From Microcaldota archaeon (GTDB lineage: Archaea; Micrarchaeota; Micrarchaeia; Micrarchaeales; Micrarchaeaceae): a stretch of DNA of 64,000 bases. Below are positions 7,439-25,528 of the stretch, piece by piece. Location of the stretch: the NCBI GenBank assembly GCA_028866715.1, contig JAGWHO010000001.1:1-64000 (forward strand), in the 5' to 3' direction. Every line of letters starts with the position of its first letter. The stretch's first letter is position 1. The notes under the pieces were generated by a model. That model was given only the letters and a program-made list of their open reading frames with translations, ran no database searches and was not told the origin of the DNA. Made by a program: the position numbers and the translations under genes.

Positions 7439-8116
7439 TTAATGCTTTCGCCTGATGGATGCAGAACCGTACTGGCAGATTTTATTCAAGGGGCAGCCCA
7501 CGCACAGCGGCCTAGTTCTGCAGTAATTTTTCCCTAGCTCCACGAACTGCGCGTGCATGTCCTGGTAAAGGACAAGATCGCGCTTTACCCTCTTTTCGAA
7601 ATAATCCTGCAGCTCGCCGTAAGAGATGTCTTCGCCTATCTTCGGGTTTATCCTGTGCATCGCCCTTTTCGTGTATGCGTCTATAACGAAAATCGGTTTC
7701 TCTGCGGCGTAAAGGATTATGGAATCAGCCGTCTCTTTGCCGATGCCTTTGTAAGAGAGAAGCGCGTCTCTGAGTTCCGTCTTGTCCAATGAGAAGAGCC
7801 TGTCGAGCGTGCCGTACTCTCTCTTTATGGATTTGCATATGCTGAGAAGCCTTTGCGCCTTCTGCCTGTAATATCCGCTGGGCCTTATTATCTTCTCCAG
7901 CGAGCGCCGTTCCGTCTTTGTTATCTTGTCGAGAGATAGGAGCTTTGCTGCCTTGAGCCCGGATATCGCCTTCTCTACATTGGTCCATGTAGTTTGCTGT
8001 GTGAGGATGGCGCCGACCATGATCTCGAATTTCGTCTCTCCCGGCCACCAGTCCAGGAAGCCGAATCTCTTCCTGAGATGCGAGTATATGGCATTAGGAT
8101 CCGACTTGTACACCAT
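7439..8116 (-). CDS. HhH-GPD DNA glycosylase, MagIII/EndoIII-like
   Basis: This base-excision repair glycosylase has 225 aa. Visible parts are LTQQTTWTNVEKA, a helix-hairpin-helix LLSYKGIGKETADSIIL, the catalytic Asp in FVIDAYTKR and a C-terminal iron-sulfur cluster motif C-x5-C-x2-C-x5-C. The residue that is the catalytic Lys in endonuclease III is Glu here (GKETA). That, with the N-terminal WWPGETKFE, points to the monofunctional 3-methyladenine glycosylase MagIII subgroup rather than to a lyase. The start is ATG 8116, preceded by a GTG in frame. It is divergent from the next gene with only a 34-bp shared promoter region. Confidence 0.83.
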   Translation of the reverse strand: MVYKSDPNAIYSHLRKRFGFLDWWPGETKFEIMVGAILTQQTTWTNVEKAISGLKAAKLLSLDKITKTERRSLEKIIRPSGYYRQKAQRLLSICKSIKREYGTLDRLFSLDKTELRDALLSYKGIGKETADSIILYAAEKPIFVIDAYTKRAMHRINPKIGEDISYGELQDYFEKRVKRDLVLYQDMHAQFVELGKNYCRTRPLCVGCPLNKICQYGSASIRRKH

Positions 8117-8937: not shown

Positions 8938-9414
8938 TCATTCAGCCTTCTCGGCCTTCTGTATTATCTTTGCAGTGCTCATCTTAGTAGTTATCGGTAT
9001 AGGCACTACCACGTCCTGGAGCTCGACAGTGATGTCGCTCTTGAGGTCGTCTACCTTTAGCACCTTTGCCTTGTAGCCCTTGAACGGTCCGCTCGTGAAT
9101 TCCACGGTATCGCCCTTCTCTATTCCGGCGATCTTGCTCCTTACCTCTATGAGCTTGTTTATCTCTTCCTCGCTCAACGGCTTTGGAAGTATGCCTCGTA
9201 TGTTGTGGCCCTTCGTTATGAACTGCCTGCATGAGACCTCATCTTCCGCCTCGACTATTATGTAGCCGCGGACGCCCTCCACAACAAGTATGGAGTATAT
9301 CGGGAGATTCGCGCTCTGCATCTTGTTCTGCAGCATGTTGGCTGCTATCCTTTCCTGCCCCGAGGTTACCTTCACTACGAAATACAAGGTTATCACATTT
9401 AGAAAGAGACGCAT
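8938..9414 (-). CDS. spt5: Transcription elongation factor Spt5 (NusG homologue)
   Basis: Spt5 clamps RNA polymerase and promotes processivity. The protein has an NGN domain (about 8-95) and a KOW motif around GDTVEFTSGPFKGYKAKV (about 105-125). The C-terminal tail after the KOW domain is charged and slightly longer than usual. ATG 9414 lies about 30 bases downstream of a TATA-like ACTTAATACTTA on this strand, suggesting a leaderless message. A GTG at 9396 is the alternative start. Confidence 0.93.
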   Translation of the reverse strand: MRLFLNVITLYFVVKVTSGQERIAANMLQNKMQSANLPIYSILVVEGVRGYIIVEAEDEVSCRQFITKGHNIRGILPKPLSEEEINKLIEVRSKIAGIEKGDTVEFTSGPFKGYKAKVLKVDDLKSDITVELQDVVVPIPITTKMSTAKIIQKAEKAE

Positions 9415-9477
9415 AGCCCGAGCTATGTCCTATTTCCACTAAGTATTAAGTAGGGAAAGGCTAAAAAGCCTATCTGT

Positions 9478-10245
9478 ATGGCGCGCGGATACGACCTGCT
9501 GGGCAACATAGCGGTTATAGAGCCAATGGGCAGGATTGAAGAGAGGAAAAAGGCCCAGGAGCTAATGAAGACTCATGAGCACATAACCACGGTGCTGGCA
9601 AAGGCTGGCGCAGTATCTGGAAGGTACAGGACGCGCAAGCACAGATATGTGGCAGGCAAGAGGACCAAGATAGCAATCTACAAGGAAAACGGCTGCACAT
9701 TCAAGTTCAACGTAGATACGTCTTTCTTCTCCAACAGGTTGTCGTACGAGCGCTCGAGGATAATGGCTCTTGTGAGGAAGAAAGAAAATGTCATGGTGAT
9801 GTTCGCGGGAGTAGGGCCGTTCGCGATAGAGATAGCAAAGACCCGCAAAGACGCTAATGTTGCCGCTGTGGAGCTGAACAAGAACGCTTACAAGTACATG
9901 CTGGAGAACATAAAGCTGAACAAGGCGCAGAACGTAGTCGCGATAAACTCCGATGTGAAGAAGATACCGCAAAAATACAAGGGCTTCGCTGACAGGGTAG
10001 TAATGCCGATGCCGAAATCGAGCCTGCTGTTCCTAGACCAGGCGTTCATGGTGGCGAAGAAGAGATGCGTGGTGCACATCTATTCCTTTGGCAATTCTGA
10101 AACGGCATCAGATGACGTTTATGGCGCGATAAAGGAGCACGCAAAGAAGAACGGATACAAGGTTAAGCGTCTTCTTGAAAGGACTGTGAGGCCTTACTCC
10201 GCGAAAGAGATAGAGATAGTGATAGACTTCCAGATTTCAAGATGA
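9478..10245 (+). CDS. trm5: Trm5-family tRNA G37 N1-methyltransferase, D1-less
   Basis: This SAM-dependent class I methyltransferase acts at tRNA position 37. The D2 domain begins almost at residue 5 (YDLLGNIAVIEP), followed by a SAM motif MFAGVGPFAIEIAK (about 114), the acidic AAVELN strand and a VVMPMPKS loop where Trm5 usually has MNLPKS. The D1 domain of most archaeal Trm5 enzymes (about 70 residues) is absent. Taw2 enzymes of the wyosine pathway also lack D1, so that role remains possible. I prefer Trm5 because of the PKS loop. Confidence 0.82.
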   Translation: MARGYDLLGNIAVIEPMGRIEERKKAQELMKTHEHITTVLAKAGAVSGRYRTRKHRYVAGKRTKIAIYKENGCTFKFNVDTSFFSNRLSYERSRIMALVRKKENVMVMFAGVGPFAIEIAKTRKDANVAAVELNKNAYKYMLENIKLNKAQNVVAINSDVKKIPQKYKGFADRVVMPMPKSSLLFLDQAFMVAKKRCVVHIYSFGNSETASDDVYGAIKEHAKKNGYKVKRLLERTVRPYSAKEIEIVIDFQISR

Positions 10246-22633: not shown

Positions 22634-23752
22634 TTACAGGTTGACGTCAATGTTGAGCTGTTCTTTCAGCTCCCTGTACCTGTTCCTGATCGTGACCTCT
22701 GTCACGCCTGCGACGTCGGCTACCTCCTTCTGGGTCCTTCTCTCGCCAGCAAGCGCGCCCGCGATGTACACAGCTGCGGCGCTGACTCCTGTCGGGCTCC
22801 TTCCGGATACGAGGCCCTTCTTCATTGCGTCTCTTAGAAGGTCAATTGCCTTCTCCTGCGCCTCGCCCGACAGCTTGAGCGCGTTGACGTATCTCGGGAC
22901 GTAGCTTATCGGGTCCGTGAGAGGGATCTTCAGGTTGAGCGCGTGGGATATTACCCTGTACGCCCTTCCTATCTCCTTCTTCGGCAGTCCTGAAATGCTT
23001 GAGATCTCATCTAGAGTTCTTGGCATTCCTGCCTGTCTGCATGAAGCGTATATTACTGCCTCGACTACAGTCTCGATCGGCCTTCCTCGTATGAGGTTGT
23101 TCTGCACGCACTTCCTGTACAGAAGCGCTGCGCTTTCGCGTATGTTGTCCGGCAGACCAAGGTAGCTCGCTACTCTGTTGAGCTCAGGCAGTGCAATCAG
23201 GTAGTTCCTTTCAGACGAGCTTGCAATGCTGGCCCTCTTGTGCCACTTCCTCATTCTGTAGAGCTGCGCCTGCCTCTTTGACGGTATCCTAACTCCGCGA
23301 ATGTCCTTGTTGTACAGGTCTATCTCTGTGACAAGACCCCTGTTGGGCTTGGTGTACTTTATTGATGCTCCTGTTCTTGCCCTTGCGTTCCTCTGATCGG
23401 CGTCGAATGCCCTCCATTCAGGGCCTGTATCCGTTATGTTCTCCTCTATCACGAGGCCGCAGTTGTTGCATACGAGCTCTCCCCTCTCGTTGTCGAATAT
23501 GAGATCTGTGCTACCGCAGCTCGAGCACTTCTTCACAGGCGCGTCGACCTTGGACGCGTCCACCGGGTGCTGCATGCCCACATGAGGCAGCGTTGGCGCA
23601 AGCTGGTCCTGCACCGAGAATGCGCTCCTTGGCCTGCCTCTCTTCTTTACTGAGACGTCGGCCACATTGAGCCTGTTGTCGCTAACGGTTATCTTCCTCA
23701 CCTTAGTTGCCTGAGGTGCCATCTTTGTCTTCTTAGAATTCTTTGTTGCCAT
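22634..23752 (-). CDS. tfb: Transcription initiation factor TFB
   Basis: TFB bridges TBP-DNA and RNA polymerase. A zinc ribbon with CSSC...CNNC lies at about 74-94, the B-reader/B-linker segment GPEWRAFDADQRNARARTGA comes next, and two cyclin repeats follow, with the closing helix-turn-helix TQKEVADVAGVTEVTIRNRYREL. The 372-aa protein has about 70 extra residues before the zinc ribbon. They are basic and include KKRGRPR, which resembles an AT-hook. The start is ATG 23752. A TATA-like TTTAAAAATA lies at 23803-23812 upstream. Confidence 0.95.
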   Translation of the reverse strand: MATKNSKKTKMAPQATKVRKITVSDNRLNVADVSVKKRGRPRSAFSVQDQLAPTLPHVGMQHPVDASKVDAPVKKCSSCGSTDLIFDNERGELVCNNCGLVIEENITDTGPEWRAFDADQRNARARTGASIKYTKPNRGLVTEIDLYNKDIRGVRIPSKRQAQLYRMRKWHKRASIASSSERNYLIALPELNRVASYLGLPDNIRESAALLYRKCVQNNLIRGRPIETVVEAVIYASCRQAGMPRTLDEISSISGLPKKEIGRAYRVISHALNLKIPLTDPISYVPRYVNALKLSGEAQEKAIDLLRDAMKKGLVSGRSPTGVSAAAVYIAGALAGERRTQKEVADVAGVTEVTIRNRYRELKEQLNIDVNL

Positions 23753-23933
23753 CGAAACCACGTTCTATTTTTGGGACTTTAGCGCAAAACGAATAGGGTT
23801 AATATTTTTAAACCTTGCCAAAATCAGATACTATTATTGTGAAAGATTAAATATATAAACCTTTCGGTGGGGCTATCGACGTAATCTGCGACGTCAAACT
23901 GCCTGAAACCGGCACCAAAGCCCTTTTAATGGT

Positions 23934-23975
23934 AGTGGCAGGCCGTAGCCCTCTTTCTGTTCTAGGCAGCATTCG
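23934..23975 (-). repeat. Displaced 3' end of the RNase P RNA gene (42-bp direct repeat)
   Basis: These 42 bases are identical to 25278-25319, which is the 3' terminus of the RNase P RNA gene including its CR-V segment. The copies flank a 1.3-kb insert carrying one ATPase gene. This is the pattern left when an element integrates at the 3' end of an RNA gene: the gene is rebuilt at one junction and the old 3' end is left at the other. This copy is the orphan end. Confidence 0.85.
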
Positions 23976-23985
23976 CCCGAATGCG

Positions 23986-25215
23986 TCATGGTGAGGCGCC
24001 CAACAGATCGTATGCGTCGATTATCTCTAACTTCCTGGAGGTTAAGCCGGCCTTGTCCTGGACGAACAATACTCTGCGCCCTGCCTCGATTCTGCCAAGC
24101 TTTTCTTCTGCCTCACGCAGCTCGGCAGCAGTCACTTTGCGCTTCCACTTGACCTCTAGAGCCACGCTTGGTTTCTTGAATCTGGTCAGCACCCCATCTA
24201 TTTCATAATCTGCGGAGTGGACCACGTTCTCCTCAAGACCTAGCTTATACGCAAGGTACTCCCGTATATTGTCCTCGAGTATACGGGGGAGCATCTCGTC
24301 TAGTATCCTCTCGGCCTCGGCCCTGCCTATCTGCCTTTGCGAGACCCCGTATTTCTCATCTGCATAGAAGAAGAGCCGCATCAGCGGGGAGACACATTTA
24401 TACACAAACCTGTTCTTGCTGTACACCCTTACTCGTTTCAGTATCCCTATCTGCATCATGATGTTGAGATACGGCTGTACAAATCCCGGATTGTCTTTGC
24501 TTATCAGCCGCTTTGAGAACAGACTGCTCGATATCTCGCCTGATGTAACCTTGCCGTCTGCAACTGCCCTTATCACGCCTTCATAGATAGCGGACGTTCC
24601 GCGATCCTCCTCAATGAGTATCTCGCCGAATAGGGCGGGTATGGAGTTTACGGACCCGAGCAGTATGTCCGCCATCGTCGCCCGTATCCTTCCCTCTCTA
24701 TCGAAATATTCTGCTGCCATCGGCTCTCTAAGCATTATGGCTGCCTCTACAAGCTCCTTTTTGCTTAGACCGAATCCGGCCAGTGCTTGCATGCTATCTT
24801 CCAATGATATTATTGGCACCTGTACCTCATTGAAGAGCCCAAGTATTGGCGATCCCGCTGATATCAGCCGTCTGGCGAGAAAGAGCGTGGAGCTCAGCAG
24901 TATGACTTTTCCGCCGCTTCCTATCGAATGAAGAAGGTCGAGAAAGGGGCCGCCAAGTCTCTGGAACTCGTCCACGGCTACGGTCTTTCCGTCGGCGATT
25001 CCCCTTCTGAGGCGATCGATAAAGACATCGTACCCCACCTGCGTGCCTTCCCTCTTTGATATCACGGTCCGGTCCCTGTTCACGAAGAAGTATTCGTCAT
25101 ACTTGACAAAGTTCTCGACCAGGAATGTCTTGCCCGTCTTCCTTCTGCCGAATACGAGCGTCCACTTCCGGACGTTGTTGATGCGCCCCACTTCTTCTGG
25201 CCTATGTATAATCAT
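23986..25215 (-). CDS. Archaeal AAA ATPase with DUF234 nuclease-like domain
   Basis: The 409-aa protein has a Walker A GRRKTGKTF near residue 22 and a Walker B VAVDEFQRL near residue 83. A winged-helix middle follows (about 230-275, EISSSLFSKRLIS...MMQIGILKRV). The C-terminal DUF234 domain has EIDGVLTRFKKPSVALEVKWKRK, the D...ExK pattern of PD-(D/E)xK nucleases. These archaeal ATPases are multi-copy and mobile in many genomes, and their function is unclear. The gene is bounded by the rnpB-derived direct repeats and has a palindrome over its promoter. Confidence 0.88.
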   Translation of the reverse strand: MIIHRPEEVGRINNVRKWTLVFGRRKTGKTFLVENFVKYDEYFFVNRDRTVISKREGTQVGYDVFIDRLRRGIADGKTVAVDEFQRLGGPFLDLLHSIGSGGKVILLSSTLFLARRLISAGSPILGLFNEVQVPIISLEDSMQALAGFGLSKKELVEAAIMLREPMAAEYFDREGRIRATMADILLGSVNSIPALFGEILIEEDRGTSAIYEGVIRAVADGKVTSGEISSSLFSKRLISKDNPGFVQPYLNIMMQIGILKRVRVYSKNRFVYKCVSPLMRLFFYADEKYGVSQRQIGRAEAERILDEMLPRILEDNIREYLAYKLGLEENVVHSADYEIDGVLTRFKKPSVALEVKWKRKVTAAELREAEEKLGRIEAGRRVLFVQDKAGLTSRKLEIIDAYDLLGASP

Positions 25216-25221
25216 AATTAT

Positions 25222-25237
25222 TATAATTGCAATTATA
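25222..25237. promoter_or_regulatory. Perfect 16-bp palindrome at the ATPase promoter
   Basis: TATAATTGCAATTATA is a perfect palindrome seven bases before the ATPase ATG and next to the TATA-like CTTTTATATATAATT on the minus strand. This placement suits an operator for autoregulation by the winged-helix part of the ATPase. The role is inferred. Confidence 0.55.
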
Positions 25238-25278
25238 TATAAAAGCCTTCCGGTGCGCCATGTTTCTAATATAAGGCA

Positions 25279-25506
25279 GTGGCAGGCCGTAGCCCTCTTT
25301 CTGTTCTAGGCAGCATTCGTCTAAGCGGCGTTTTGCCTTGCATACTCACAGCACACGCATCGGCGCGTTTCATCCCAACCGGCACGCTCGTAGTGTCATC
25401 GCTTATGCGCCGCATGGGTCTCGTTTCTATTCCGAATCAGCCCTTAAGGCACGTGCGCTCTGTATGAGAGGAGCTTCCTCCTTTCGGTAGGCTGCCCGCC
25501 TGCCAC
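25279..25506 (-). ncRNA. rnpB: RNase P RNA, short form (~228 nt)
   Basis: The minus strand begins GTGGCAGGC and ends GCCTGCCAC, a perfect 9-bp P1 helix. Between them are recognisable conserved regions. GAGGAAGCTCCTC corresponds to CR-I (GAGGAAAGTC-type), and TAGAAACGAGACCC lies near CR-II. GGGATGAAACG fits the GGGTGAAA segment. The 3' region has TAGACGAATG...AGAACAGAAAGAGGGCTACGGCC, corresponding to the CR-V end of bacterial and archaeal RNAs. At about 228 nt it is shorter than the usual 280-330. The 3' 42 nt are duplicated at 23934-23975. Confidence 0.9.
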
Positions 25507-25528
25507 CGGTAGGATTGCTCTCGCATGG

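Follow-up and report, generated by a model that had tools for sequence, protein, structure and literature searches.

How a single protein-coding gene came to lie between two identical copies of the 3' end of an RNase P RNA gene is the question raised by this locus, which is part of a 64,000 nt window (the whole stretch of DNA analyzed) from a micrarchaeal draft genome of 878 kb in 25 contigs (G000). A complete archaeal RNase P RNA gene (rnpB) is present at 25507–25278 of the minus strand (Infernal, RF00373, 86.2 bits, model positions 1–288 of 288). Its last 42 nt (CGAATGCTGCCTAGAACAGAAAGAGGGCTACGGCCTGCCACT) form the proximal, attL-like tail copy at 25278–25319 (minus), which is the end of the working gene, and they recur without mismatch and in the same orientation at 23934–23975 (minus) as a distal, attR-like copy left over from the former end of the gene. 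The copies are 1344 bp apart, start to start, and the repeat stretches to 45 nt at 98% identity; about 1e-18 pairs of 42-mers would be expected by chance in 7 kb. The initial annotation had described this perfect duplication around one gene, and had argued that the duplicated end keeps CR-V and leaves rnpB functional. The exact coordinates were reproduced, CR-V (ACAGAAAGAGGGCTAC) lies within both tail copies, and the rnpB target is intact over the whole of the covariance model.

The 1302 bp body between the repeats (23976–25277, minus) has a single ORF, coding for an ATPase of 409 aa (25215–23986, minus), with its start codon 62 nt past the rnpB 3' end and its stop codon 10 nt ahead of the distal tail. 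Counting one tail copy, the mobile unit is 1344 bp long, and its GC content (0.51) does not differ from that of the window (0.52). The insert lies between direct repeats of the 3' terminus of a structural RNA gene, which itself remains intact, as is typical of elements integrated at such genes. Because the ATPase gene is the only ORF between the repeats, the unit does not carry the integrase of its own that island surveys use to define such elements. There is likewise no gene for a transposase between the repeats, such as an insertion sequence or transposon would carry, and the 42 nt repeat is the end of the target gene.

Empty sites were found in four genomes of the same family (G007, G010, G012 and G035), where rnpB is followed directly by the genes for TFB, a TRAM-domain protein, psmB and a CPSF-like protein, and the TFB start lies 202–316 nt after the rnpB 3' end. 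The insert body is missing from all four. In G000, the gene for TFB (22634–23761, minus), the native downstream neighbor of rnpB in these relatives, begins at +1517 nt from the rnpB 3' end, equivalent to +173 nt after the distal copy. The DNA past the distal copy aligns to the empty sites (local scores 35–51, shuffled maxima 14–18) while the DNA past the proximal copy does not (scores 13–18), which places the insertion at the 3' terminus of rnpB. Each empty site has a single copy of the tail, and none lacking the 42 bp was seen; nor was the same arrangement found with diverged repeats in distant relatives, slight divergence being confined to an inherited insertion with other cargo (see below). 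It is close to certain that the 1344 bp insert is a unit integrated precisely at the 3' terminus of rnpB, so the insertion proposed from inspection of the window is backed by both the empty sites and the flank alignments. The perfect 42-mer and the empty sites together rule out chance or simple tandem duplication. A gene between rnpB and TFB is not in itself the sign of a cassette, as G021 has genes for thymidylate synthase, DHFR and GlyA at this position with no repeat. All genomes compared are draft assemblies.

Among 164 genomes of the order searched with a pattern for the rnpB tail, 133 gave a match, and four of these (G000, G061, G163 and G087) have two tail copies on one contig. Use of the site is recurrent, with two further independent insertions besides that of G000. 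One is shared by G061 and G163, which belong to the same genus and carry a single inherited insertion (95.8% identity where the two align); the proximal tail is the same in both and the distal copy has diverged, which is what selection on the proximal copy alone would be expected to produce. The other is in G087, for which G066 and G096 provide empty sites. The repeats measure 42 nt in G000, 65 nt in G061/G163 and 60 nt in G087, a span of 42–65 nt that falls within the 29–69 bp range of crenarchaeal att sites (PMC6563490), and all end in the identical mature 3' nucleotides of the RNA (CCACT). The cargo of G061/G163 is an AbiEi-like gene and AbiEii, with the cassette border of G061 only 1 nt after AbiEii, and that of G087 is AbiEii and AbiEi on the opposite strand. 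Both relatives' cassettes thus have an AbiEi-like gene beside an AbiEii nucleotidyltransferase gene (PF08843, 3e-14 and 1.5e-25; PADLOC AbiEi, 1.3e-25 and 6.9e-29), the arrangement of the AbiE type IV toxin-antitoxin systems of abortive infection, whereas the G000 cassette has the ATPase instead. Searches with the tyrosine recombinases of these genomes detected no such enzyme in the rnpB loci examined, and the genomes searched contained neither an rnpB element bearing a recombinase nor a recombinase known to act on rnpB. The earlier view that rnpB would be a rare site is refined by these data, as it has been used repeatedly within the order, with AbiE cargo elsewhere and by a unit without an integrase. 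G039 and G127 were not counted, as each has two full rnpB genes and is probably a mixed bin. Separately, two contigs of G144 (C13 and C18; loci L096 and L097) both end precisely at the rnpB tail and share an identical overlap of 87 nt, possibly reflecting a further insertion or a mixed population; in its sister genome, G145, the rnpB site is empty and uninterrupted.

The ATPase contains an AAA_14 domain (Pfam PF13173, 2.2e-6), followed by a winged-helix-like middle region and a C-terminal, nuclease-like E...D...ExK pattern. In an alignment of 15 homologues the Walker A, Walker B and C-terminal motifs are all retained, with GRRKTGK, DEF, D340 and K356 invariant and E354 nearly so. The protein had been called an ATPase-nuclease. 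The nuclease half of that name corresponds to the conserved E...D...ExK pattern, with no Pfam match at the curated cut-off. A sequence search retrieved no PDB relative. The AlphaFold model (mean pLDDT 86.6) resembles Orc1/Cdc6 and STAND proteins, including Avs4 and plant NLRs, at low TM-scores (0.22–0.47). With archaeal ATPases of the AAA_14/STAND type, structurally close to Orc1/Cdc6 and Avs4/NLR, it has in common the Walker A and B motifs, the winged-helix-like region and the overall fold; unlike a large Avs sensor, the G000 protein is short, is encoded by one gene and ends in a nuclease-like tail. PADLOC gave a weak match to the candidate defence system PDC-S01 (1.5e-8). The cargo is probably a defence module, which here is this STAND-like ATPase with its nuclease-like C terminus and in the relatives is AbiE. 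Few genomes of the phylum have the ATPase gene (15/296), the named records among its close homologues are mostly Micrarchaeota, and searches did not find it in PHROGs or among PLSDB plasmids. Neither the ATPase nor the rnpB-tail pattern was found in IMG/VR.

Just before the start codon of the ATPase gene is a palindrome, TATAATTGCAATTATA (25222–25237), a putative operator. Palindromes related to AAGTATAA-N6-TTATACTT are found just 5' of the start codon in many homologues from several archaeal phyla, among them those at loci L130, L131, L132, L136 and L137. Its retention before homologues across phyla suggests that the motif is operator-like, that the gene may be autoregulated, and that the leader may travel with the gene.

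Direct repeats also flank homologues of the ATPase at other sites, and do so more frequently than they flank other ORFs of the same loci (5/27 versus 0/83; Fisher p = 7e-4), a count that leaves out paralogue arrays by exclusions chosen after the data had been seen. The repeats excluded are those around the homologues at L130 and L156, which are likely fragments of paralogous ATPase genes. In G288 the bracketing repeat consists of the last codons of a gene, in G023 it is the 3' end of an acetyltransferase-like ORF, and at L151 it is the 3' part of an activase gene. At L142 the homologue lies between the copies of a 402 bp direct repeat (93%) of a YdeI-like gene (7506–7907 and 9254–9655), with a broken copy on the left and an open one on the right. 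At L137, in Thermoplasmata, the ATPase gene is located between a short and a 55 nt copy of a tRNA-Val tail, within an element that begins with tRNA-Val and an integrase gene. The closest homologue (64% identical; G020, L092, C2:236001-256000) is about 3.5 kb from a tyrosine integrase gene, with no tRNA gene within the 20 kb read. Most homologues have no flanking repeat, so old or non-cassette copies are common.

Tail-bounded elements at tRNA genes occur in the same family, both with and without an integrase. In G000, 37 tRNA genes were found, and when the downstream DNA was checked for 34 of these, convincing tail copies turned up at two, tRNA-Val and tRNA-Leu. The tRNA-Val gene (C22:48241-48312; L201) has a perfect 37 nt tail copy 1.7 kb downstream, and the unit so delimited carries a 384 aa ORF for a predicted surface protein without a Pfam match, and no integrase. 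The tRNA-Leu gene (C11:65020-65104) has a 26 nt tail copy 1.9 kb on, and the cargo here is a tyrosine integrase together with a ParE-type toxin gene and its small upstream partner. Within the window, another tyrosine integrase ORF (545–1507, minus) begins inside a tRNA-Val gene (1429–1500, minus) and reaches nearly to the contig end; it is homologous to the integrase similarly placed after the tRNA-Leu gene, just outside the window. All integrases seen in G000 adjoin tRNA genes. In G010 (L184, C5:46000-65000), an integrase-less unit of 854 bp lies between tRNA-Asp and a 60 nt tail copy, directly after which comes an integrase gene, and a third tail copy is situated 16 kb from the tRNA gene. 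Of all the observations, this tandem speaks most strongly for sharing of an integrase in trans by units that have none of their own.

The explanation that we favor, with somewhat better than even confidence, is that the G000 unit is a minimal, single-cargo cassette that uses the tail of an RNA gene as its attachment site and was integrated in trans by the tyrosine recombinase of another element. Such a cassette would consist of the ATPase gene, its own leader and the 42 bp copy of the rnpB tail as attachment site, and would be carried by a circular intermediate. Recombination between the cassette tail and the chromosomal rnpB tail would give rnpB back an identical 3' end and leave the old tail downstream of the cassette. 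Since the cassette has no recombinase, a tyrosine recombinase encoded by another element would have to act in trans, as the tRNA-Asp tandem suggests. The empty sites with their conserved synteny, the two other rnpB insertions, the units at tRNA-Val, tRNA-Leu and tRNA-Asp, the L137 element and the lengths of the repeats all argue for this explanation. Against it are the failure to find a recombinase acting on rnpB, the location of the G000 integrases at tRNA genes, the negative IMG/VR search, and the rnpB tail itself, which has no exact local inverted repeat of at least 5 nt, unlike tRNA tails with their T-arm.

The main rival is homologous recombination through the tail. A circle bearing the gene together with part of a donor rnpB could have been inserted by Campbell-type homologous or short-repeat recombination, with no site-specific recombinase involved, and the right border would then coincide with the gene 3' end because homology between species ends there. 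This would suit the lack of a recombinase in or near the units, the variation in repeat length (42, 60 and 65 nt, and up to 402 nt at L142) and the varied targets of the ATPase units, and in E. coli a small island that has no recombinase is reported to undergo RecA-independent recombination at short repeats (PMC5426353). However, 42 bp is short for homologous recombination, the 3' border is identical in independent insertions, and in the same family integrases accompany tail-bounded units at tRNA genes, in one case in tandem. We regard this route as unlikely, although it deserves serious consideration.

Decay of a larger element, in which the integrase and other genes were deleted to leave both att sites and one gene, has a lower probability in view of how compact the units are. 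The homologue of G020 (64%), about 3.5 kb from a tyrosine integrase, and the L137 ATPase, inside an integrase-bearing element, speak for it, but the G000 unit has just 62 nt before the start codon and 10 nt after the stop codon, that of G061 ends 1 nt after AbiEii, and deletion would have had to produce equal compactness in three independent rnpB insertions with different cargo and no debris. We consider it improbable. It is also conceivable that the ATPase is itself a mobility enzyme that places its own gene beside the ends of other genes, which would agree with its sparse distribution (15/296 genomes) and with the excess of repeat-bracketed homologues (5/27 versus 0/83, p = 7e-4). The AbiE cassettes, however, share the identical rnpB border without having the ATPase, most ATPase genes have no flanking repeat, and the predicted fold is similar to ORC/STAND ATPases and not to a known recombinase, making this very improbable.

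The G000 unit is similar to the genomic islands of tRNA and tmRNA genes (Islander, TIGER, and archaeal elements with tyrosine recombinases) in its insertion at the 3' end of an RNA gene, the restored gene end and the displaced tail left behind. It differs in having rnpB as the site, a length of only 1.3 kb, one cargo gene and no integrase. A likeness to integron gene cassettes, which have been reported in nine archaeal phyla (PMC9668308), can be seen in the single-cargo unit, the recombination site next to the gene and a recombinase that, for the G000 unit, would be encoded elsewhere. A difference lies in the layout: the borders of the G000 unit are rnpB tails, and units of this type use the tail of an RNA gene as the site and occur singly, without an array led by attI. 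A review of archaeal tyrosine recombinases makes no mention of rnpB or RNase P (PMC8371274). In the literature we searched, with incomplete coverage, rnpB is nowhere described as an attachment site and is mentioned only in unrelated uses, which is not proof that no such description exists.

With these findings, rnpB joins the conserved RNA genes that serve as landing sites for mobile DNA, and the site has been used repeatedly with different defence-type cargo. The TIGER/Islander resource accepts only islands that have an integrase and are not shorter than 2 kb (PMC12424338), so that units below this size and without an integrase are excluded by survey design; the present examples suggest a class of integrase-less mobile gene cassettes at the ends of RNA genes. 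More tentatively, and with slightly less than even confidence, archaea of this phylum, and perhaps others beyond it, may exchange recombinase-less cassettes of one or two cargo genes, each with its own leader and an RNA-gene tail as att site, that are moved in trans by the recombinases of neighboring elements and have rnpB as one standard dock, an integron-like exchange without integrons. If cassettes do move in trans, small archaeal genomes could swap defence genes singly.
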